Below are positions 1 through 20,880 of a stretch of 24,955 nt of DNA, one piece after another. The stretch is from a virus: IMG/VR virus record IMGVR_UViG_3300006875_000150, positions 1-24,955 of that record. One strand, 5' to 3'. The first letter of the stretch is position 1. Every line of letters begins with the position of its first letter. Both the position numbers and the translations under genes were made by a program. A model generated the notes under the pieces. That model did no database searches. It saw nothing but the letters and a program-made list of their open reading frames with translations, and was not told the DNA's origin.

Positions 1-318
1 GACCTCATGGTTCCGGCACGGTCCAACGACATGATCGTGGGCTTCCCTCTGGACATCGCACGCTACGCGATCATCCTGACGGTGATGGCCAAGATGACTG
101 GCTTCGAGCCACGCTACGTCTACATGCCATCCTCCAACTCCCACATCTACAAGAACTGCTACGACATCGCTGAGGAGCTGATCGCTCGTGAGTCCCGCCC
201 AGAGTGTCGTCTCCTCCTGAACCAGCGTGAGTACACGAGCTGGGATGACGTGCAGCTGGATGACCTCGGCATCTCCAACTACCAGCCTCACGACGCCATC
301 AAGGTGGCGGTCAACTAG
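1..318 (+). CDS. ThyA-superfamily enzyme, C-terminal part; probable dCMP hydroxymethylase
   Basis: The reading frame is open from base 1 and ends at the TAG at 316-318, so only the last 105 residues are present. They align without gaps to the C-terminal part of thymidylate synthase: an RSND phosphate-binding stretch, GFPLDIARYA matching GLPFNIASYA, SHIY matching the conserved THLY/HIY, and a YQPHDAIK ending like YDPHPGIK. The Asn that selects dUMP (Asn177 in E. coli ThyA) is Asp here (codon 52-54). It is established that dCMP hydroxymethylases such as T4 gp42 carry Asp at this position, and that N177D ThyA accepts dCMP. I therefore infer a dCMP hydroxymethylase using methylene-tetrahydrofolate, feeding 5-hydroxymethyl-dCTP synthesis, rather than a thymidylate synthase. 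The catalytic Cys lies upstream of the window. Family assignment is firm; the substrate is inferred from one residue. Confidence 0.85.
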   Translation, partial: DLMVPARSNDMIVGFPLDIARYAIILTVMAKMTGFEPRYVYMPSSNSHIYKNCYDIAEELIARESRPECRLLLNQREYTSWDDVQLDDLGISNYQPHDAIKVAVN

Positions 319-2020: not shown

Positions 2021-4027
2021 ATGCCGAAACGAAGCGTGAAAGAGAACGTGGTGCCAGTCAATCTGGCCAACCAGATGAAGGAGGACTACGGCGACTACGC
2101 GATGGCCGTGCTCCTCGGCCGAGCGATCCCTGACCTCTACGACGGCCTGAAGCCTGCGGCGAGGAGAATCCTCCAGACGATGATCGAGGAGGGTCTCACC
2201 CCTGAGAAGAAGTTCGTCAAGTGCGCTCGCGTCACCGGCCTCACACTCGCCTACTACCACCCACAAGGCAGTTGCTACGGCACTCTGGTCAACATGGCCA
2301 CCGAGTGGAACAACAACGTTCCGTGGGTGAACGGCCATGGCAACTTCGGTTCCTCCGTCGATGGACCTGCAGCTGAGCGCTACACGGAGGCGAAGCTCCG
2401 TCCCTCAGCAGTGGAACTGCTGCTTCAGGACCGTGCCACGTGGGACACACGACCGAACTACGACGGTTCTCGTCAGGAGGCTGCGCGCTTCAACACTGCA
2501 GTGCCTTCGATCCTCCTCAACGGAGACGCTGGCATCGCAGTGGGCTTCGCCACAACGCTCGCACCGCACAACCTGCGTGACGTCGTGAAGGCAACCACGC
2601 TCGCTGCGACTGGAAACATCAAGAAAGCGCGGGAACTCCTGCTCCCTGACTTCCCCACAGGATGCGAGATCGTTCAGGATGAGAATCTACTTACTTACAC
2701 TCAGACTGGTAGCGGCAGCATTCGCTGTCGAGCACGCTACGAGGTCTCTACGCAGAAGCGTGAGGGTCGGGCGAAGGATCGAGGAGTGGTCACGTTTACA
2801 AACCTACCGCCTCGGATCAACCCTGAAAAACTGGGTGAACAGATCAAGGAAGCCCTCGAGAAGGGGCGAATCGACGGAATCGCAGAAGTCATCGATGAGT
2901 CTGATCTCTCCGGAGACCGTGTCAGTGTTGTTGCGAAGCCCGGTGTGGACGCTGAACAGCTGGCTCAGCAACTCTTCGCAACCACCGATCTTGACACTCG
3001 CTATTCGGCAAAGACGCTGGTTATTGACGGTACGCGACCGGTCGAGCTCTCGCCAGTTGACATTTGTCAGAGATGGTTCGAGTGGAGACTGGGTCGCCTG
3101 GAAGTCAAGTTCAAGCACGAGCTTGACCTGAAGGAGGCACGCCTCGAGATCGTTCGTGGCTTCCTCAAGGCGATCGACAAGATCGATGCCGTCATCAAGA
3201 TCATCCGCGCTTCGGCCACACCGAAGGATGCTCTCACCACACTGGTGACGACCCGCACGCTGAAGTTCACACCGGACCAAGCCAGAGCCATCCTCGAGAT
3301 GAAGCTGCGGCAACTCACCGGCCTGGACCGTGAGGAACTCCTCGCTGAGGAGCAGGAACTCATCTCCACTGTGGCAGAGCTGGAGAACCTGGTGAAGAGC
3401 AAGGACGCACGGAAGACGTGGGCACTCGCTCAGATGGAGGAGCTTGCGAAGCGCCACGGAGAGCGCAGGAGGTCGCCCCTGGTTGGGCCTCCGGCAGGGT
3501 TTGTGAAGGCAACCTCATCCACCGCGGCAAAGCGCGACCAGGGACCCAGGACGGCTCGCCCGCGGTTCATGGTGGTGGACCAACGCAAAGGCACAGTGAC
3601 CCAAGCCAAGGGACCACGCGGTGCTCTGGTGCTGGACCAGAAGGACAAGGTGGTGTTCCTCACGCAGGACGGTCTCCTCAAGAAGGTGCCTGCCACGTTC
3701 AAGGGACCCATCGCCGACTCCTACACGGGTGTGGTGCTGGCCAAGAGGGAGGCGGAGGTTTCCCTCAGGAAGTACCTGATGGTGTTCAAGCTCGAAGGGC
3801 AGCTCAAGGCTCTGACCCTCAGCGGTGAGGATCTGTGCAAGACCACGAGCAAGGGCAAGAGCGCTCTCCCTGAGGGAGCAGAGCTCGTGCATTTCGGAGA
3901 GGATGGCTACACCGTGGAGTTCAAATCGAAGCGGAAGAAGCCGATGCAGATCACACTGGCCACCGCCAAGGCGGGTCGACCAGGTGCAAAGGGCAACAAG
4001 GTCGCCAGTCTGGATGAGCTCGCGTGA
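2021..4027 (+). CDS. Type IIA DNA topoisomerase subunit A (GyrA/ParC-like)
   Basis: This 668-aa protein is the DNA breakage-reunion subunit of a type II topoisomerase. It opens with GRAIPDLYDGLKPAARRIL (residues 33-51), the classic GyrA/ParC N-terminal signature. It carries the active-site motif AAERYTEAKL with catalytic Tyr121 and preceding Arg120 (as Tyr122/Arg121 in E. coli GyrA), and PSILLNGDAGIAVGFAT, the winged-helix/tower region. The long coiled-coil region with EMKLRQLTGLDREEL follows at about residues 430-470. The C-terminal part (about 500-668) is shorter than the six-bladed GyrA beta-pinwheel, and I see no clear GyrA box (QRRGGKG), so it may act more like a topoisomerase IV or T4-type enzyme than a supercoiling gyrase. 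The ATPase (B) subunit is not in the window and must lie elsewhere or be supplied by the host. A TACACT box lies just upstream, and the gene is probably a single transcription unit. Confidence 0.93.
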   Translation: MPKRSVKENVVPVNLANQMKEDYGDYAMAVLLGRAIPDLYDGLKPAARRILQTMIEEGLTPEKKFVKCARVTGLTLAYYHPQGSCYGTLVNMATEWNNNVPWVNGHGNFGSSVDGPAAERYTEAKLRPSAVELLLQDRATWDTRPNYDGSRQEAARFNTAVPSILLNGDAGIAVGFATTLAPHNLRDVVKATTLAATGNIKKARELLLPDFPTGCEIVQDENLLTYTQTGSGSIRCRARYEVSTQKREGRAKDRGVVTFTNLPPRINPEKLGEQIKEALEKGRIDGIAEVIDESDLSGDRVSVVAKPGVDAEQLAQQLFATTDLDTRYSAKTLVIDGTRPVELSPVDICQRWFEWRLGRLEVKFKHELDLKEARLEIVRGFLKAIDKIDAVIKIIRASATPKDALTTLVTTRTLKFTPDQARAILEMKLRQLTGLDREELLAEEQELISTVAELENLVKSKDARKTWALAQMEELAKRHGERRRSPLVGPPAGFVKATSSTAAKRDQGPRTARPRFMVVDQRKGTVTQAKGPRGALVLDQKDKVVFLTQDGLLKKVPATFKGPIADSYTGVVLAKREAEVSLRKYLMVFKLEGQLKALTLSGEDLCKTTSKGKSALPEGAELVHFGEDGYTVEFKSKRKKPMQITLATAKAGRPGAKGNKVASLDELA

Positions 4028-5885: not shown

Positions 5886-6080
5886 ATGCCAGATACTCCT
5901 CAGGTGGGTGGCAGCAATCTGAACTCACACTACCCCAACTACGCAGCTGCCTGGACCAGCATCGTCAATTACGACGCCAACGGCTATCCTCTCTACCGGC
6001 TTCCTCAGGTGATGCCTCCGAACCTGCGTTGCGCAGCGATCATCCCGACCGGTAGCACCTCCGTGCCTCCCGCATATTGA
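5886..6080 (+). CDS. 64-aa paralogue of the N-terminal module of the Ig-like protein
   Basis: The short product contains HYPNYAAAW followed by GYPLYRLP. The N-terminus of the 893-aa gene at 6655 has QFPNYANSA followed by GQPLYRLP at the same spacing, and both continue with a short hydrophobic strand (CAAII / AAYV). The two are related at protein level but well diverged in DNA. The gene begins 25 nt after a GGGTAAAACC motif, and its TGA overlaps the homing endonuclease ATG (TGATG). It may be a stand-alone small virion protein, or the leftover N-terminal part of an older copy of the large gene separated by the endonuclease insertion. The coding call is fair; the function is unknown. Confidence 0.6.
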   Translation: MPDTPQVGGSNLNSHYPNYAAAWTSIVNYDANGYPLYRLPQVMPPNLRCAAIIPTGSTSVPPAY

Positions 6081-6661
6081 TGAAACATTACGTCTACTAC
6101 TCCTACGAAGAGTGGGGACGTGGGTACATCGGCGTCAAGTCGTCTGAGGATCCCGTCACTGACGGGTACTTCGGAAGTTACGTTGATCCAACCTTCCAAC
6201 CCACTGACAAGATCATCATCGCTGAGTTCCCTACAAGGGAGCAAGCAGTGGCGGCGGAGGTTATCCTTCACCGCTACTTTGAAGTTGCCGACAACCCCCA
6301 CTTCGCCAACAAAGCTAATCAGCCCTCCCCCGACTTCGGCAGAATCGACACGTGCGCCCTAGGGGGCCACACTCAGGGTCTGGTCAACGTGAAAACGGGG
6401 CACATGCTCCGAGTCCAACAACTTGGGGCTCCCAAAGGCGGGAAGTCTCAAGGAAAGAATAACATTGAGTCAGGACACATTCAGTCCCTAGGAAAACGGC
6501 AAGGGAAAATCAATGTTGAGTCTGGCCTCCTTAGGAAAGCCCAGAACAAACAGTTTGTATGCACCAAGACAGGATTTATCGGTAATGCGGGAAACGTTGC
6601 CCGGCACCAGAAGCGTCTTGGGATTGACTCCTCGCACCGGAAACCCTTAGATCAATGTTAA
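6080..6661 (+). CDS. GIY-YIG family homing endonuclease
   Basis: The ATG at 6080 is preferred to the in-frame TTG at 6077. The 193-aa product opens with YVYY (residues 4-7) and GYIG (15-18), the GIY-YIG signature in its phage variant, followed by DGYFGSY (28-34), a candidate metal-binding Glu60 in EVILH, and NPHFANK (72-78), as in free-standing phage GIY-YIG enzymes. Residues 120-155 hold two repeats of the form QGKxNxESGxx, a DNA-binding repeat commonly seen behind such nuclease domains. It would cut a cognate site in phages lacking the gene and spread by repair. The gene is wedged between two paralogous modules, overlaps both neighbours (TGATG upstream, 7 nt downstream), and is visibly richer in A/T than most of the window, consistent with separate acquisition. 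Confidence 0.85.
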   Translation: MKHYVYYSYEEWGRGYIGVKSSEDPVTDGYFGSYVDPTFQPTDKIIIAEFPTREQAVAAEVILHRYFEVADNPHFANKANQPSPDFGRIDTCALGGHTQGLVNVKTGHMLRVQQLGAPKGGKSQGKNNIESGHIQSLGKRQGKINVESGLLRKAQNKQFVCTKTGFIGNAGNVARHQKRLGIDSSHRKPLDQC

Positions 6662-9375: not shown

Positions 9376-12171
9376 ATGACAAAACTCAACGTGCCGCACA
9401 TGCGCAAGAACGAACTCGGCTATCCGGTGGTCTCTGACGAGGTTCACCGGAAGCTATTCGGCACAGTTCCCCGCCCGGAACCGACTCAGAAACAGTTGGA
9501 CCGGGCGGTTTCTCTTTTGGAGAAGTTCAAGGTCCCCGTCCCTGTCTCTCACGCCGAAGGCATGTACGACGGGCCACTCCCCCTTCCCGATCTGAAGGGA
9601 GTGACGATCGAGGAACACTTCGAGAAGATCGCAGAAGAGCAGATCGGCCACCACAAGAAAGCAGCAGATGATTTCGCTCAAGCCACGCTCCCGCCGATCC
9701 CAGGCATTGACGACCTTGTCCTCAACCCTGGATGGACTCGCTACACGCTTGGAAAGGATGGCAAGTGGACTACGGAAACAGTCCCGCACCCTCTCGAGCA
9801 AGCGTTCACCTTTGACACTGAGACCTTCGTGGTTGGAGGCGCATTCCCTATCATCGGAACGGCGCTCTCCTCTGAAGCGGCTTACATCTGGCTTGCGGCG
9901 GAACTTATCGATCCTTCGATCCCGCAGTCGGAGTGGACGCAGTACGACATGATCCCCATCGGGGAGAACAAGTTCGTAGCAGGCCACAACATCTCTTATG
10001 ACCGCGTTCGTTCTCGCGAAGCCTATTCCCTCGACCGTTCCGAGCCCGAGAACTTCTACTTCGACACTCTTTCCGCTCACATCGGGGTTTCTGGTCTTGC
10101 TTCTGGTCAGCGTTGGCTGTACGTTCTTGCGGGAAAGGAACCTGAGGAGATGACCGAGGAGGAGAAACGGAAGCTCCGCTTCGCCCCCAAGTGGCTCGAG
10201 GCTGGTTCCACCAACTCCCTGGTCGAGTGCTACAACTTCCACGTCTACGAGGTGCGCAAGTTCTTCGGTGGTGAAGCCAAGAAGCTGGGCTACGAGGACA
10301 AGGAGGTGCGAGACCTGTTCGTGACCGCACCTGACCTCGCTGTCATCCGCCACGCCATCTTCGAGGCTCTCGACTATGCCGTCAAGGACGCGTTCTACAC
10401 CGCTGAGCTGTTCCAAGCCATCTGGCCAAAGTACCTCGACTCGACTCCGAGCATGGTGGGTCTGTGTGGCATGTACCACCTCAACGGCTCGGTGATTCCT
10501 CTGCCTGAGGACTGGACCAAGTGGATCCAGCGTTGTGAGGACACCTACCACAGCTACATCCGTGAGATGGGCGACGTCTGCCGTGAGCTGGCTGAGACCC
10601 ACTACGCGGCGTGGCGTGAGATCTACGACCAGAATCCTGAGAAAGCCCAGGCGTGGGCAGACCGTGACCCGTGGCTCCACCAGCTGGACTGGGATGTCAA
10701 GACTGTGAAAGGCAAGTACGCCCACATCCCCAACTGGTATCGGGACTTCATCAAGGATCCCGACCGACGCATCACGCCGAAGAACCAGCTCGCCCACCTG
10801 CTGCTCAAGCTGAAGTGGGAAGGCAGCCCGATCGTAGCCACCAAGAAACAGGGCTGGTGCTACACCAACGAAGAAGGTGAGCTCACCAAGATCCCCCACC
10901 CCAAGAACCAGAAGGACAATGTGGGTGTGCTGCTGTCCAAGGATTTCGTCGATGACATGAAGGTCGGTCGTCTCGACAGCGACCTGCCTGAGGCCAAGCG
11001 AGCTCTCGAGATCGCCAACGCGACCTCCTACTGGACATCCGTGCGCAAGCGTGTGATGGATCGCATCTTCGTCAAGGCTCACAATCCACACGGTGAGGAC
11101 GCCTACATCACCCTGCCAGAGATCCTGGCTCACGGCACTGTGACGCGACGCACTGTGGAACCGCTCATGGTGACCATGTGCTCGACCAAGAACTGGCGCA
11201 TCGGCACAGAGCTCAAGACCCGCGTGTCTGCGCCTGACGGCTGGAAGATTGTGGGTGCTGACTTTGACGGTCAGGAGCTTCAGATCGCGTCCGCCTACTG
11301 TGACGCGTGGGACACAGGGGTCGTGGGCGGCTCTCCCATGGGTTTCAGTGTGCTCTCCGGCTCGAAAGAGCAGGGAACTGATCCTCACTCCGCACTGGCA
11401 AAAGCGGCCGGCGTGGACCGTGACACTGCCAAGGGTGTGGGCTTCGCAGTTCTCTACGGCGCCGGCATGCGGACTGTGGCCAACACAATCCGCCGCAAGT
11501 TCCCAGACCGAAACGCCAGGGAGCTCAACAACCTGGCGATGAAGATGCTGGAGGCGAAGAAGGGCTACCGTCAGTACAAGAGTGAGCCATTCCAAGGCGG
11601 TAGCGACTCCGGTTGCTTCAACTACATGGAACGTCTCGCTCTCAAGACCAAGGTGCCTCAGCTTCCGTGCCTCGGCACCAAGATCTCGACCGCACTGCGT
11701 CCCGCGGCCGTGGGAGACGACTTCCTGACTGGTCGCATCAACTGGACGATTCAGGCGTCGGGCGCAGAAATCCTGGCCACAATCCTCACCGCAGCCCACT
11801 GGCTGATGCGTGAGTACAAGCTTCAGGTACGCTTCATCATCTCGATCCACGACGAGATCTGGTGGATGGCTCCAGAGAAGCACGCTGAGCTGTGGGCTGT
11901 CGCCTACCAGATCGCCCACCTCTACACCTGGGCTCGCTTCCAGTCCTCTGTGGGACTTCCCGATGTGCCTCTCAGTCGAGCATTCTTCTCGTCTGTGGCC
12001 ATCGACAACCGCATTCGGAAGACACCTCACGAGTGCACCGTCAGTCCGTCCAACCCTCAGGGCAAGGATGAGCCTGACGGCCAGGAGTTCAGCATGCGCG
12101 AGCTGGCTGAGCTGGGTGCCATCGACCGGCTCAAGACCCGCCACGGGCTTGTCCAGCGCGGTTTACTCTAA
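9376..12171 (+). CDS. Family A DNA polymerase, Pol gamma-like, with 3'-5' exonuclease
   Basis: This 931-aa replicative polymerase (ATG 9376 preferred to TTG 9373) has both domains intact. Exonuclease: Exo I FDTE (Asp147, Glu149), Exo II HNISYD (204-209), Exo III YAVKD (Tyr334, Asp338). Polymerase: motif A VGADFDGQEL (catalytic Asp629), motif B with Arg682, Lys686, Phe690, Tyr694 and YGAG, motif C SIHDE (Asp826, Glu827). From memory, these and intervening segments match mitochondrial Pol gamma rather than Pol I or T7: DTLSAHIGVSGLASGQR, DPWLHQLDWD, GTVTRRTVEP, GTDPHS, GRINWTIQAS, and RAFFSSVAIDNRIRK followed by SPSNP. The Pol gamma-type region between exonuclease and polymerase domains (about 345-590) is also present. 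Phe690 replaces the Tyr found in human Pol gamma (Tyr951). No accessory-subunit, primase or helicase gene is nearby. It is preceded by a TACACT box. Confidence 0.95.
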   Translation: MTKLNVPHMRKNELGYPVVSDEVHRKLFGTVPRPEPTQKQLDRAVSLLEKFKVPVPVSHAEGMYDGPLPLPDLKGVTIEEHFEKIAEEQIGHHKKAADDFAQATLPPIPGIDDLVLNPGWTRYTLGKDGKWTTETVPHPLEQAFTFDTETFVVGGAFPIIGTALSSEAAYIWLAAELIDPSIPQSEWTQYDMIPIGENKFVAGHNISYDRVRSREAYSLDRSEPENFYFDTLSAHIGVSGLASGQRWLYVLAGKEPEEMTEEEKRKLRFAPKWLEAGSTNSLVECYNFHVYEVRKFFGGEAKKLGYEDKEVRDLFVTAPDLAVIRHAIFEALDYAVKDAFYTAELFQAIWPKYLDSTPSMVGLCGMYHLNGSVIPLPEDWTKWIQRCEDTYHSYIREMGDVCRELAETHYAAWREIYDQNPEKAQAWADRDPWLHQLDWDVKTVKGKYAHIPNWYRDFIKDPDRRITPKNQLAHLLLKLKWEGSPIVATKKQGWCYTNEEGELTKIPHPKNQKDNVGVLLSKDFVDDMKVGRLDSDLPEAKRALEIANATSYWTSVRKRVMDRIFVKAHNPHGEDAYITLPEILAHGTVTRRTVEPLMVTMCSTKNWRIGTELKTRVSAPDGWKIVGADFDGQELQIASAYCDAWDTGVVGGSPMGFSVLSGSKEQGTDPHSALAKAAGVDRDTAKGVGFAVLYGAGMRTVANTIRRKFPDRNARELNNLAMKMLEAKKGYRQYKSEPFQGGSDSGCFNYMERLALKTKVPQLPCLGTKISTALRPAAVGDDFLTGRINWTIQASGAEILATILTAAHWLMREYKLQVRFIISIHDEIWWMAPEKHAELWAVAYQIAHLYTWARFQSSVGLPDVPLSRAFFSSVAIDNRIRKTPHECTVSPSNPQGKDEPDGQEFSMRELAELGAIDRLKTRHGLVQRGLL

Positions 12172-12798: not shown

Positions 12799-13359
12799 AT
12801 GCTCATCCTGTTAGGTGGCCCCGACCGAGTCGGGAAATCAACACTAGCCGCCAACCTCGCCGATCTCACTGGCTTCAAGGTCAAGCATCACAACGCCCCC
12901 GACGTCTTCGATCCCGACATCTTTGACATCTACCGTCGGAATCTGGAGGAGGGTGGCGACCAGATCTGGGACCGCAGCTATCTCTGTGCGTTCATTCTCG
13001 AGCGCTACCGGAAGCGAAACCACGATCATCTCGTGGAGATCATGGATCTCGAATTCGAGCTGAGCAAGAGGCACGAGGTTATTCACGTCGGTGTGACCAA
13101 GCCCTGGCATTGGTGCGCACCACTTCACTGGGAGGAACTGAACAAGAGGCATCACCTGCCAGCCCACTGGGCAAGGCGCGATGCGTTCATGTCGCGGCAG
13201 AATGAACACCACTTCTACATCGACGAGATGGAGAACTTCTACCGCTACGTGACCATGTTCCCCTCATTCATGGTAGACCCTGAATGGGGAGCCGAAGAGG
13301 TCTGGGCAAATGTGCAATCAATCCACTCCATGCAACGACCAAGGTTTGCCTTGTCTTGA
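12799..13359 (+). CDS. P-loop nucleotide/nucleoside kinase
   Basis: The 186-aa product begins with a strand and a Walker A motif, GPDRVGKST (residues 7-15), of the form seen in thymidylate-kinase-like and deoxynucleoside-kinase-like phage enzymes. DRS (58-60) after a hydrophobic strand matches the DR[S/Y] motif of that group, which contacts substrate. The rest is charged, with a possible lid region near LNKRHHLPAHWARRDAF (114-130). It has the size of a dNMP kinase. With a dCMP-hydroxymethylase-like gene at the window start, a role in phosphorylating (hydroxymethyl-)deoxynucleoside monophosphates is plausible, as T4 gp1 does, but specificity cannot be read from the sequence. It lies 3 nt after the RlpA-like gene and overlaps the next frame by 50 nt. 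Confidence 0.8.
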   Translation: MLILLGGPDRVGKSTLAANLADLTGFKVKHHNAPDVFDPDIFDIYRRNLEEGGDQIWDRSYLCAFILERYRKRNHDHLVEIMDLEFELSKRHEVIHVGVTKPWHWCAPLHWEELNKRHHLPAHWARRDAFMSRQNEHHFYIDEMENFYRYVTMFPSFMVDPEWGAEEVWANVQSIHSMQRPRFALS

Positions 13360-15720: not shown

Positions 15721-18700
15721 ATGGCAACTATCTCCTTTGGAGGCGCTCCTGGCGTCTACATCAACGAGGTAGCCGGACAGTCGGCTACCCCCGCTATTGC
15801 TCCCTTCTCGACCAACTACATGCTGGTTGAGGTGGAGCCCGATGTGCCCACCACACTGTTCCCCTTCAACACCCCCATCCAAGTCACCAATACTCGCGAG
15901 TATGTGCGACTGATCGGCGGTGTGATCCCCTCCACCAAGATCGAGCTGCTGTCCTACCAGTGTGTGGACGCATTCTTCGCTCAGTGCTACGTGGGCGACC
16001 TGCGCGTGATCCGCGTGGGCACTCCCTCCAACGTGGTGGAAGTGCAGCTGAACCCCTCCGGCTTCAAGACCAACGGTCTGGGTGTCTCCACCCCTCTGCA
16101 GGCTGGTGACACTGTTCACGCCCAACTGCTCATCAACGGCGCCCGTCTCGGCACCTTCACCAACAGCGGCACCTGGAAAGGTGTGCCCGTGGTGATTCCC
16201 GTGGACTACGTCGAGGGCAACTACGACAACAACAAGAAGATCGCCATCGCGATCCGTGATGCTGTTGCCGCCGCCATCACCACCGACCCCAACGTGTCGG
16301 CTGGCACCATCGTCCGTGACATCGGCGTGTGTCAGACTGCCAACAGCGAGTGTGCTTTCGAGTACCTGGCCGGTCGTGAGTTCAACGCTCCTGTGAGCGT
16401 GGTGCCTGAGAGCGAGCCTCCCAGCGACGGTGCTTACTACGTGTTCACTCTGAACACCTACACCGTGGGCCCTGTCATCCCTGACAGCACCAACACCAAC
16501 GAGCTGGTTGCTGACTACATCCAGTGCCTCCGCACCGCATTCGTGGATGAGGAGTCCCAGGGTTACCTGACCGCTCCTTGCGCCTTCGCCAAGTTCGGCC
16601 CCGAAGGTCGTCGCCTCATCGGCCAAGAGATGGCTTTCCAAGCCGAACTCAACAGCCACAAGTGGATGGCCATTGCTGACGCAGGTCCGTACCTGGTGAC
16701 CAGCATCCTCGAGTATGAGGACTTCCTGCAGCATCAGGCTGCTGCTCCTCTGGTGAATGGCCAGGAGTTCCTGGTTGGCAACAGCGTGTACGAGTGGGTG
16801 GCTGATGACACCGACTACCTGCAGCTGCGCTACACCCCGCTGAGCGCTTCTGAGTCTGACCCCTCCTACGCCGTCAACGGCTCGCAGAACCTGAACGTTC
16901 CTTTCGACCGTTTCCTGTCCCTGCGTGACAACGGCCAAATCACCTTCGCCACAAGCACCACACCTTCCTACGACCGTCCCGGTCTTCTGGACCTGGTGGG
17001 TGAGAGCTGGCCTTCCACCAAGGAAGCCGGCACCCCCGTGACCCTGAGTGACTGCCGCGGCGCACTGGCCGAGTTCGAGGGCCTGACAGTGTATGTGGTT
17101 CCCACCTACCTGACACCTGAGAACAAGACCTTCACCGGCTACATCTACTTCGCTGAGACCTATCCTCAGGCGATCACCGCCTACAACTGGATCATCAGCC
17201 AAGGTGGACTGGACGGCGACGGTACTCCTGAGTACCCCGGTGTTCACACCCTGCCCCCAGGCTGCATCCCCGTGGATGCCTCCAGCGGCAACGGCAACAT
17301 CGGCGACGCTGTGACCGGCGTGGTGATCACCAACCCTGGTACCGGCTACAACGCTGGTGACGAGCCGATCGTGACTTTCCCCGCTCCTGCTGCTGCAGGG
17401 GGTGTGACAGCCACCGGTATCGCTATTTTGGGTGACACCGGCAACATCGACGAAGCAGTGGTCGACACCGCCGGTTCTGGCTACACCAACGTTCCGACAG
17501 TGAACGTGGTGCCTCTCGCTGGCGACCCCGGTTCCGGCGGCGTGGTGACAGCTTCCCTCGCAACTGTGGGTGGCAACATCGCCAAGCTGACCCTGACTGA
17601 TGGCGGTTCCGGCTACGAGAGCGCTCCGTCTGTGGCCATCTCGGCTCCTGCCGGCGCTGGTGGCGTGGCTGCAACTGCAACCGCAACTCTGGCTCCCGCT
17701 GGCACCATCAAGACCCTGACCCTGGGCAACCCTGGTCAGAACTACATCGCCGCTCCTTCCGTCAGCTTCTCTGGCTCCGGAACTCTGGCAAGTGCGACCG
17801 CAACTCTGGCCACCACTGGTGGTGCGGCTGTGGGCATCGGCACTTTCGGCGGTGGGTCCCTTTATCAGGCCGTTCCGACTGTGGCCCTCCCCTCCGGTAC
17901 AACCGGTGTGGGCGCTACCTTCTCTGCCACTCTGGCAGTGACTGGCGGACTGGCCGCTGTGAACGTGACCAACGGTGGCGCTGGTTACACTCTGCCTCCT
18001 GTCGTGAATGTGAGCGGTGACGGCACCCTCGCTGCTGCGACTGCCGTTCTCGGCGCCGAAGGCAAGGCTGTGAACGTGACTGCCGCTGGCGAAGTCGCTG
18101 TTGGCCCTGGTCTGGTTGGAACCATCACCATCGCTGGTGCTGGCTCTGAGACCGACATCGTCATCGACTACTCGACCGCAGTGGACTTTACCGCTGGGTT
18201 CTCCATCGGTGCTGCCGGCTCTGGTTGGACTCAAGCCAACCTGACTGCCGCTCTGGCTGGTTCCTACGGAACCGTGACCGACTCGGCCCCTGGCACTTGG
18301 TTCACACCTCCGGTCCTGACCATCACCCTGGGCTTCCCTGTGGCTTCGGTCAGCGTGACTGCCAACGGTTCGGGCTACACTTCCTTCGGCATTGGTTTCA
18401 CCAACGCTGTGGGTGACAGCACTGGCGGCGCTGCTGCTGCTTCCGGTGTTCTGGGTCGTGCCCTGGCCGCCATCAACGTGGTGACTCCAGGTTCTGGCTA
18501 CACCTCCAGCGATGCCAACGTGCTGCAGATCACACCTGCTGCCGGTGACACCACTGGTGACGGTGCTGCGGGCGTCGTGCTCTACGGCTTCCCTCTCGCT
18601 TCTGTCAACCTGACAAACAGCGGTACTGGCTACGACGAAGCCACCCTGGTGAACCTGGTGAACGCCCCTGGCGACACCTACGGTTCTGGCGCTGCCCTGT

Positions 18701-20880
18701 CCTACGTGATCGGTCGCGCTGTGGCCTCCGTGGCCCTGACCACACAAGGCTCCGGCTACGCTACAAGCGATGCCGTGACCGTCACATTCTCCGACGGCAA
18801 CCCCGCTGTTGCTGCTGCTGCCACCGCGACCAAGGGCTTCCCTGTGTCGAGCGTGAGCATCGTGGATCGTGGTGCTGGCTATCTGGCCACCCCTCTCCTG
18901 CAGTTCGTCCCCTCCCCTCTGGATTCGGGCAACACCATTGTCGCTGCTACAGGTCATGCTGAGCTCGGCTTCGGTGTGGTGGATGTGGAGATCACCAACG
19001 CTGGTTCCGGCTACTCGGCGGCTGACATGCCTCTGACCCTGACCTTCAGCGGTGGTACGCCCATCGTTCCTGCTGCTGGCTACGCCTCGCTGCAGTCGAA
19101 GGGAACCGGCATCCTGTCCTACGAGACACCCGCCTGGGACATTTACGTCGAGATCGACGGTCAGACCTCTGACCTTATCCTGAACGGCACCAACCAAGTG
19201 CTGGATCTGAACACTCTGCACCTGCCCGGATCGCTCCAGGACAGCACAGAGAACTTCCAGCTGGCACAGTTCACTCGGACCTTCGCCGAGACAAACATCA
19301 CCAAGCTCGATCCCTCCGTGTCTTCGAGCCCGGCTGTGTTCAACTGTCTCAATCACGGTCTGAACAACGGCGGCATCGTCTACTTCACTGCCCCTCTGAC
19401 CAAGATCGGCGGTGGCACACTGGTGAACGCCTCCACTTCGCAGGCTTCTGTGAAGTACTACGTGAACGTGATCAACGGTAACCAGTTCATGCTGGCGACC
19501 ACACTGACCAACCTCAACAGCCGGATCTTCATTCCTTATCCGAATGGCGGTCTCACAGCTGGTCAGACCACGCTCTCGTACAGCACCCTGCTGATCGCTC
19601 CCGAGAACACCAGCCTCTACAACAACGAGGGTCTGGTGAACCTGATCCGCGGTCGGAAGTACGGCTTCAACACGTACAACGTGATGCCGACCTTCTATCC
19701 AGCGAACCTGGATCCCCTGTCCGGTCCTGCCGGCCAAGGCGACACCCACACACTCGGTTTCTACCGTGTGGAGAGCCAGCCCGACGCGAAGTACTACTCC
19801 GCCTACGGTGAGTTCGACGCTGGCTATCCGAACCCGGACAACGCTGGATTCCTCGGAGACCTCGTCCTGGCTTCCCAGGACACTGTGAGCTTCTTCTGCG
19901 TGCCCCTGGTCGCCCAGGAGCGTGCTACCGAGGCTTACATCACCCCGACCTACACAGACGGCACTGGCACAAAGGTCGTGCTGTGGGGTGCTTCTCTGAC
20001 TCTGCGCTACACTGCCTACAAGGAGGCTCCGTCCAACCTGTGGCGCTTCAACGCAGTTACTTCCGAGGAGCTGGTGGACTACGCTCTGCGTGGTACCTTC
20101 AACGAAGGCGTGCCTGCTGCCGTTCTGCTCGCGACTGGCATCGACGATGCCCAGAAGCTGCTCGAGGACAGCCAGCAGTACTACAACCCCCGTGGCTTCA
20201 TCGCCTACTACGGTTCGTACCTCAAGAACGCCTCCGGCGCTTGGATTCCTCCGAGCCCCTACGTCACCGGTGTGGCCATCCGCCGCTACCGCAGCGAGGG
20301 CTTCCAGTATCCACCTGCTGGTGTCAAGTTCCCCCTCAACGGTGTGTCCGCTGTTCAGATTCCGATCAACAGCACCCAGCAAGACATTCTCAACCCACGT
20401 GGTTGCAACGTCTGCCGCACACTGCCTGGATACGGTGCTACCGTGTTCATCTGGGGTGGTCGTACTCGCATCAACCAGGACGACGCCGAGCAGCGCCTGT
20501 TCCAGTTCGTGAACACTCGCGTGATCATGAACGTGGTGTACGGTTCGCTCCGCCGCGCCTTCGACAGCCAGATCTTCAACGTGATCGACGGTTTCGGCCT
20601 CGTTTACAACAAGATCATCTCCATCGGCAACAGCATCCTCAACGAGCTGTATGTCCGCGGAGCGCTGTTCGGTGCTAAGCCGGGTCAAGCCTTCCAGGTG
20701 ATCTGCGACGAGCGCATCCAGACTCCGGCAGCGCTGGAGAATGGCATCGTTCACGCCAAGGTGTTCGTGGTTCCGGTGCCAACACTGGAGCGCATCGAAG
20801 TCGACCTCATCCGTGTGGCCATCGGCAACATGCAGAACGAGCTCGACGCACTGGGCGTGGGCCAAGACAACTCCATCTGA
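15721..20880 (+). CDS. Giant contractile tail sheath protein with inserted repeat domain
   Basis: At 1719 aa this is several times longer than usual sheath proteins (roughly 400-700 aa). The N-terminus has the sheath signature GGAPGVYINEV (residues 7-17) followed by TREYVRLIGGV and a strand-rich region. The conserved C-terminal sheath domain is clear from about residue 1450: NPRGFIAYYGSYLKN (near 1490), PSPYVTGVAIRRY, NGVSAVQIPI, WGGRTRI, FQFVNTRVIMNVVYGSLRRAFD, and a final strand ending in VDLIRVAIGNMQNEL. Between them, residues about 525-1115 hold twelve GSGY-type repeats plus further insert sequence to about 1300. The sheath forms the contractile tail sleeve; the inserts should project from the tail surface. 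No RBS or promoter is visible at the ATG. The next gene overlaps as TGATG. No tail tube gene follows, unlike most myoviruses. Confidence 0.92.
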   Translation: MATISFGGAPGVYINEVAGQSATPAIAPFSTNYMLVEVEPDVPTTLFPFNTPIQVTNTREYVRLIGGVIPSTKIELLSYQCVDAFFAQCYVGDLRVIRVGTPSNVVEVQLNPSGFKTNGLGVSTPLQAGDTVHAQLLINGARLGTFTNSGTWKGVPVVIPVDYVEGNYDNNKKIAIAIRDAVAAAITTDPNVSAGTIVRDIGVCQTANSECAFEYLAGREFNAPVSVVPESEPPSDGAYYVFTLNTYTVGPVIPDSTNTNELVADYIQCLRTAFVDEESQGYLTAPCAFAKFGPEGRRLIGQEMAFQAELNSHKWMAIADAGPYLVTSILEYEDFLQHQAAAPLVNGQEFLVGNSVYEWVADDTDYLQLRYTPLSASESDPSYAVNGSQNLNVPFDRFLSLRDNGQITFATSTTPSYDRPGLLDLVGESWPSTKEAGTPVTLSDCRGALAEFEGLTVYVVPTYLTPENKTFTGYIYFAETYPQAITAYNWIISQGGLDGDGTPEYPGVHTLPPGCIPVDASSGNGNIGDAVTGVVITNPGTGYNAGDEPIVTFPAPAAAGGVTATGIAILGDTGNIDEAVVDTAGSGYTNVPTVNVVPLAGDPGSGGVVTASLATVGGNIAKLTLTDGGSGYESAPSVAISAPAGAGGVAATATATLAPAGTIKTLTLGNPGQNYIAAPSVSFSGSGTLASATATLATTGGAAVGIGTFGGGSLYQAVPTVALPSGTTGVGATFSATLAVTGGLAAVNVTNGGAGYTLPPVVNVSGDGTLAAATAVLGAEGKAVNVTAAGEVAVGPGLVGTITIAGAGSETDIVIDYSTAVDFTAGFSIGAAGSGWTQANLTAALAGSYGTVTDSAPGTWFTPPVLTITLGFPVASVSVTANGSGYTSFGIGFTNAVGDSTGGAAAASGVLGRALAAINVVTPGSGYTSSDANVLQITPAAGDTTGDGAAGVVLYGFPLASVNLTNSGTGYDEATLVNLVNAPGDTYGSGAALSYVIGRAVASVALTTQGSGYATSDAVTVTFSDGNPAVAAAATATKGFPVSSVSIVDRGAGYLATPLLQFVPSPLDSGNTIVAATGHAELGFGVVDVEITNAGSGYSAADMPLTLTFSGGTPIVPAAGYASLQSKGTGILSYETPAWDIYVEIDGQTSDLILNGTNQVLDLNTLHLPGSLQDSTENFQLAQFTRTFAETNITKLDPSVSSSPAVFNCLNHGLNNGGIVYFTAPLTKIGGGTLVNASTSQASVKYYVNVINGNQFMLATTLTNLNSRIFIPYPNGGLTAGQTTLSYSTLLIAPENTSLYNNEGLVNLIRGRKYGFNTYNVMPTFYPANLDPLSGPAGQGDTHTLGFYRVESQPDAKYYSAYGEFDAGYPNPDNAGFLGDLVLASQDTVSFFCVPLVAQERATEAYITPTYTDGTGTKVVLWGASLTLRYTAYKEAPSNLWRFNAVTSEELVDYALRGTFNEGVPAAVLLATGIDDAQKLLEDSQQYYNPRGFIAYYGSYLKNASGAWIPPSPYVTGVAIRRYRSEGFQYPPAGVKFPLNGVSAVQIPINSTQQDILNPRGCNVCRTLPGYGATVFIWGGRTRINQDDAEQRLFQFVNTRVIMNVVYGSLRRAFDSQIFNVIDGFGLVYNKIISIGNSILNELYVRGALFGAKPGQAFQVICDERIQTPAALENGIVHAKVFVVPVPTLERIEVDLIRVAIGNMQNELDALGVGQDNSI
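17300..19090 (+). repeat. About twelve tandem GSGY-type protein repeats inside the sheath
   Basis: Each unit is about 40-45 aa: a strand such as VTVTNGG, then G[ST]GY, a short loop, a strand, a Gly/Ala-rich turn (often GGVTATA-like), and a closing strand. Cores lie between residues 540 (GTGY) and 1095 (GSGY). Units 1-6 and 7-12 form two blocks separated by about 80 non-repeat residues. In units 8-12 the linker alternates FP and RA/FG before the strand, which suggests recent pairwise duplication. Function unknown; presumably surface display. Confidence 0.8.

Follow-up and report, generated by a model that had tools for sequence, protein, structure and literature searches.

The gene at positions 9376 to 12171 of a 24,955-nucleotide viral DNA stretch (the window) encodes a Pol gamma-type family A DNA polymerase, homologous to Pol gamma from its N-terminus to its C-terminus and through the spacer. 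With high confidence, we read it as the phage's own single-chain replicative polymerase of this type, belonging to the Aokuangvirus branch and sharing an ancestor with opisthokont Pol gamma, with Mic1-like phages standing nearest to the mitochondrial enzyme. The gene is of a known kind and adds one member to a published cyanophage Pol gamma family.

The open reading frame is intact, running on the + strand from an ATG at 9376 to a stop codon ending at 12171 (931 amino acids). A Pfam search of the protein detected the mitochondrial polymerase exonuclease domain PF18136 at residues 69-353 (E 5.6e-59) and PF00476 (DNA_pol_A, E 4.8e-11); PF18136 was present in 46 of the 46 members of our phage alignment, the window polymerase included. 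In a phmmer search of all PDB sequences the top 14 matches were Pol gamma chains (E 1e-112 to 6.5e-108), with best values of 1e-112 for yeast and about 1e-110 for human; the third species among these chains we take to be mouse. To judge from these sequence matches, the similarity to Pol gamma is far beyond chance. Domain limits were set by sequence alignment to human, yeast and T7 polymerases, and the features of the window are as follows.

1..318, + strand: thymidylate synthase gene, 3' part (PF00303, E 2.1e-23)
2021..4027, + strand: gyrase/topoisomerase IV subunit A-like gene, upstream of the polymerase (PF00521, E 1.2e-99)
9376..12171, + strand: Pol gamma-type family A DNA polymerase gene, 931 aa (Pfam, PDB phmmer, phage-record match, Foldseek)
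9400..9729, + strand: N-terminal domain, aa 9-118, common with Pol gamma; T7 polymerase has no aligned counterpart
9730..10461, + strand: 3'-5' exonuclease domain, aa 119-362 (PF18136 and alignment limits)
9814..9822, + strand: Exo I, D147-T-E149, aligning with human FDVEV
9982..10005, + strand: Exo II, GHNISYDR, D209, aligning with human GHNVSFDR
10375..10389, + strand: Exo III, Y334-AVK-D338, aligning with human YCAQD
10462..11115, + strand: spacer region, aa 363-580 (alignment), inside the full-length structural match
10666..10695, + strand: spacer signature DPWLHQLDWD, aa 431-440 (yeast DPWLSQLDW, human DPWLWDLEWD; absent from outgroups)
11116..12075, + strand: polymerase domain, aa 581-900 (alignment, PF00476)
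11134..11163, + strand: GTVTRRTVEP, Pol gamma-type signature ahead of motif A (alignments)
11254..11280, + strand: motif A, GADFDGQEL, catalytic D629 (alignment)
11419..11460, + strand: motif B, R682-K686-F690-Y694-G, with phenylalanine at the human Y951 position
11845..11856, + strand: motif C, IHDE, D826 (alignment)
12799..13359, + strand: thymidylate kinase-like gene, after the polymerase (PHROG 761, E 4e-7)

Compared with human Pol gamma, the window polymerase is 29% identical in the N-terminal domain (104 columns), 35% in the exonuclease, 30% in the spacer (187 columns) and 39% in the polymerase domain. The corresponding values for yeast are 21%, 33%, 30% (209 columns) and 38%; for T7 they are 20% in the exonuclease, 13% in the spacer and 20% in the polymerase domain, with the N-terminal domain unaligned. 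Because all four domains align to human at 29-39%, the first-pass annotation of this DNA was right that the likeness to Pol gamma extends along most of the protein, spacer included. The Pol gamma segments that it had named can likewise all be found in the protein, and the PDB alignments pair them with human and yeast counterparts. Window DTLSAHIGVSGLASGQR pairs with human DTMSMHMAISGLSSFQR, and window RAFFSSVAIDNRIRK with VAFFSAVDIDRCLRK; GTVTRRTVEP pairs with GTITRRAVEP, GADFDGQEL with GADVDSQEL, GTDPHS with GTDLHS, GRINWTIQAS with SRVNWVVQSS and SPSNP with TPSNP. The catalytic residues of Exo I-III and of motifs A, B and C are all kept in the alignment, and the Pol gamma-type letters GTxTRRxVE, DxDxQE and HDE are all found in the motifs.

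An AlphaFold2 model of the window polymerase, built from 46 phage sequences, reached a pLDDT of 89 and a pTM of 0.88. Used as a Foldseek query against the PDB, the model matched Pol gamma structures at every rank from 1 to 36, with TM scores (query length) of 0.83 for human 8d33 and 0.79 for yeast 9c51. The first-pass annotation had proposed a structural comparison with human POLG that took in the spacer, and the spacer does lie inside this match. Together, the 30% spacer identity and the full-length structural match therefore indicate that spacer homology is present in shortened form; the phmmer alignment passes over human residues 467-561 and 603-716, and the window spacer is shorter. The window enzyme thus resembles human POLG and yeast Mip1 in domain order, catalytic motifs, spacer and fold; it differs from human POLG in these spacer segments and in having phenylalanine for Y951.

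Near full-length homologues were found in 11 of 50,697 phage records, all of them cyanophages (S-CBWM1, S-TIM5/54/61/66, Mic1 and A-HIS1/2), and several of the 11 are already annotated as DNA polymerase gamma. One IMG/VR scan yielded 183 contig stretches with relatives, and further scans recovered S-TIM5-like and Mic1-like homologues and one very divergent homologue. The best named match among the phage records is the polymerase of Synechococcus phage S-CBWM1 (ATW62761.1, Aokuangvirus), with 54% identity over 99% of the protein and the same phenylalanine in motif B, although S-CBWM1 is a different species and its enzyme has additional sequence between motifs A and B. S-TIM5 and its relatives (Aurunvirus) have a full-length homologue with 37% identity but form a separate clade (100/100), with tyrosine in motif B and HDS rather than HDE in motif C. 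The full-length homologues of Microcystis phage Mic1 and Mic1-like contigs (L230 and L255; 36% identity between window and L230) differ in that they group with the human and yeast enzymes, and in several copies motif A is interrupted. The polg genes of Acaryochloris phages A-HIS1 and A-HIS2 are also full-length homologues, with about 32% identity, but lie on a separate branch. The very divergent homologue (L265:4614-7217), full-length and about 25% identical, lies on a 15.7-kb viral contig.

Beyond phages, plasmids gave zero matches, and among 84,980 bacterial and archaeal species genomes a single MAG contig matched. This sole genome match is a partial Pol gamma gene with 58% identity on a Microbacteriaceae MAG contig (L099:6001-6984). 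We set aside a bacterial origin, since this one contig is possibly phage or misbinned DNA.

In the window, the thymidylate kinase-like gene is followed by tail sheath, baseplate, portal and head protease genes. S-CBWM1, whose host is Synechococcus, similarly has gyrase A (gp73) ahead of its Pol gamma gene and tail genes after it. Because both share this arrangement and the polymerases are best matches at 54%, the window contig most likely comes from a relative of S-CBWM1 in the Aokuangvirus lineage, to go by gene order and sequence, and the window phage presumably has a cyanobacterial host. Between gyrase A and the polymerase lies a 194-aa open reading frame (window 6077-6661) whose start looks by eye like a GIY-YIG homing endonuclease; it had no Pfam match. 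Window 15721-20880 encodes a 1719-aa tail sheath-like protein with its best sheath match confined to residues 1485-1703 and a long glycine-rich repetitive middle matching other phage structural proteins. Long antisense open reading frames opposite the polymerase and tail sheath genes were put down to composition effects, as an assumption.

To place the gene, we built a main maximum-likelihood tree of 22 phage sequences, human and yeast Pol gamma and five outgroups (T7, CRP-171, Lbo-JY12, BRock and Klenow), which are very distant from the Pol gamma group and have long branches. The two eukaryotic sequences, both opisthokont, were taken from printed PDB alignments in which the human spacer is incomplete. 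The window polymerase fell in the S-CBWM1 clade (97/97). Human and yeast joined each other (100/99) and grouped with Mic1-like L230 (97/99). In a reduced full-length tree, from which L265, two outgroups and five other rows were taken out, the Mic1-eukaryote group had 100/99 support and adjoined A-HIS (98/98); it also appeared in exonuclease-only (100/99) and polymerase-only (100/97) trees. The grouping was thus recovered in four of four maximum-likelihood trees with support of 97-100. Placement of L265 was unsure in the main tree (branch length 4.1), and we abandoned it as a rooting intermediate: a scan for close relatives in IMG/VR returned its own contig and no other.

We weighed several other readings of the gene against this tree. 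That it is an ordinary T7-like or Pol I-like phage polymerase, its Pol gamma look a coincidence, has a practically negligible chance. Family A motifs A, B and C are indeed held in common, but the next family after Pol gamma among the PDB phmmer matches was Klenow, at E 0.0015 versus 1e-112, and the phage G20c, Klenow, T7 and Aquifex enzymes that Foldseek ranked after Pol gamma had TM scores of 0.33-0.39 versus 0.83. The main tree also split the whole Pol gamma group from T7, CRP-171, Klenow, BRock and Lbo-JY12 at 100/100. T7 polymerase is accordingly as distant a match as the first-pass annotation had held, and a position inside T7-like or Pol I phage enzymes with no spacer homology, the outcome it had named as contrary to its proposal, did not occur. 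The window polymerase does not branch with T7/Autographiviridae enzymes, and membership of the T7-type DNA polymerases was rejected. An uptake of the window gene from a eukaryote, which the same annotation had raised, found no support and is very unlikely: although the Pol gamma root is not fixed and direction therefore not proven, the gene sits in the large and diverse phage clade found by the IMG/VR scan, S-TIM5-like, A-HIS and Mic1-like phage branches lie beside it, and human and yeast stand at a large distance. A tree holding two eukaryotic sequences is still compatible with an ancient passage of the gene from a eukaryote to Mic1-like phages.

The other proposal made at first pass, that the window lineage is close to the source of Pol gamma, would place it as immediate source or closest relative of the mitochondrial enzyme, and full-length similarity with 35% identity to human and 33% to yeast could be cited for it. 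We regard this as extremely unlikely. Mic1-like L230 is closer to both: its identity is 42% with human and 41% with yeast, rises to 51% and 48% when the polymerase domain is taken by itself, and comes near the 43% that human and yeast have with each other. When forced, a clade of Pol gamma and the window lineage was rejected with an AU p of 1.8e-5, a value to be taken as a guide only, the test having been picked after the Mic1 grouping had been seen. The window polymerase did not branch next to eukaryotic Pol gamma; mitochondrial Pol gamma, itself a mitochondrial and not a phage gene, is sister to the Mic1-like phages, which take the place of immediate sister. On this two-eukaryote sampling, the phage branch nearest to mitochondrial Pol gamma is Mic1-like and not the window lineage.

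A tree with all phages as one clade and eukaryotes and outgroup opposite was not rejected (p 0.127 and 0.24) and cost 4-6 log units. A non-reversible model of a small tree without outgroup gave the Mic1-eukaryote group 64% and human with yeast 77%, and left most root positions open. The Mic1 grouping is kept and the root not fixed, so common ancestry of the cyanophage Pol gamma family and opisthokont mitochondrial Pol gamma is supported, and the window lineage as closest source is not. Three histories fit: an origin of Pol gamma within the phage family, a sister-group relationship between the two, or an early eukaryote-to-phage transfer into the Mic1-like lineage; under none of these histories is the window lineage the nearest relative of mitochondrial Pol gamma. 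The direction of transfer between phages and eukaryotes is one that we infer, and we give a little less than even weight to animal and fungal mitochondrial Pol gamma having arisen within the cyanophage family from a Mic1-like relative.

Given the intact catalytic motifs and the family assignment, a replicative, proofreading role is likely for the window polymerase. Its layout comprises an N-terminal domain, a proofreading 3'-5' exonuclease, a spacer that helps in holding DNA and a family A polymerase domain, and its presumed task is replication of the phage genome inside a cyanobacterium, with no POLG2-like partner. The accessory-subunit contact of animal Pol gamma presumably maps within human residues 467-561 and 603-716, the segments that the window polymerase skips, so the enzyme would be a single-subunit polymerase like yeast Mip1. 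Mip1 works without an accessory protein (PMC12220841).

F690 in motif B occupies the human Y951 position; phenylalanine there is common to the window clade and A-HIS1/2, and tyrosine is found in S-TIM5-like and Mic1-like enzymes. In Pol I and T7 polymerases, phenylalanine at this position leads to discrimination against dideoxynucleotides, and by analogy F690 predicts the same for the window enzyme. The lack of tyrosine from motif B in S-CBWM1 and A-HIS has been described (PMC7156551). In 13 Pol gamma phage records, several of them fragmentary, we found no DnaB_C/Twinkle-type helicase (PF03796) and no T7-type RNA polymerase (PF00940); both were detected in T7, the positive control. With these two absent from the 13 records, a mitochondrial-type replisome is not recognisable as a set in Pol gamma phages.

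Three Mic1-like Pol gamma genes are broken directly after GADVDS in motif A (L220:4779-5082, L231:6825-7674 and L048:7822-8050). The interruption in L220 is a group I intron by Rfam (71 bits), and that in L231 encloses an additional 237-aa open reading frame; L230 and L255 have no such break. Motif A is also split, following VQADYD, in an S-TIM5-like Pol gamma gene (L216:4813-6830); Rfam found no intron in the interrupting segment, which holds two open reading frames resembling homing endonucleases by eye. The same active-site region is thus struck in a second phage lineage.

The cyanophage Pol gamma genes of A-HIS1/2, S-TIM5, S-CBWM1 and Mic1 were published between 2011 and 2020. PMC7156551, the Mic1 paper, credits the first reported phage Pol gamma genes, in A-HIS1/2, to Chan 2011, the S-TIM5 gene to Sabehi 2012 and the S-CBWM1 gene to Xu 2018. 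That paper proposes an ancestor common to phage Pol gamma and mitochondria (PMC7156551), and a 2014 paper already cites Chan for the possibility that Pol gamma came from cyanophages (PMC3914683). The phage link of the mitochondrial replication enzyme on which the first-pass annotation drew is, as a general idea, already published (Chan 2011, as cited in PMC7156551 and PMC3914683).

Apart from one MAG contig, and with no plasmid match, the non-eukaryotic relatives of Pol gamma at hand are all phage enzymes. Where the mitochondrial replicase came from is a long-standing question, and from the collected set of more than 100 contigs, among them intact Mic1-like genes and L265, a tree with proper sampling could be built. 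The split between tyrosine and phenylalanine at the human Y951 position among phages leads to a direct biochemical prediction on dideoxynucleotide sensitivity. Closeness to the source of Pol gamma fits the Mic1-like lineage rather than the window lineage; if mitochondrial Pol gamma did come from a Mic1-like relative, the window lineage would be one outer branch needed to show such an origin.
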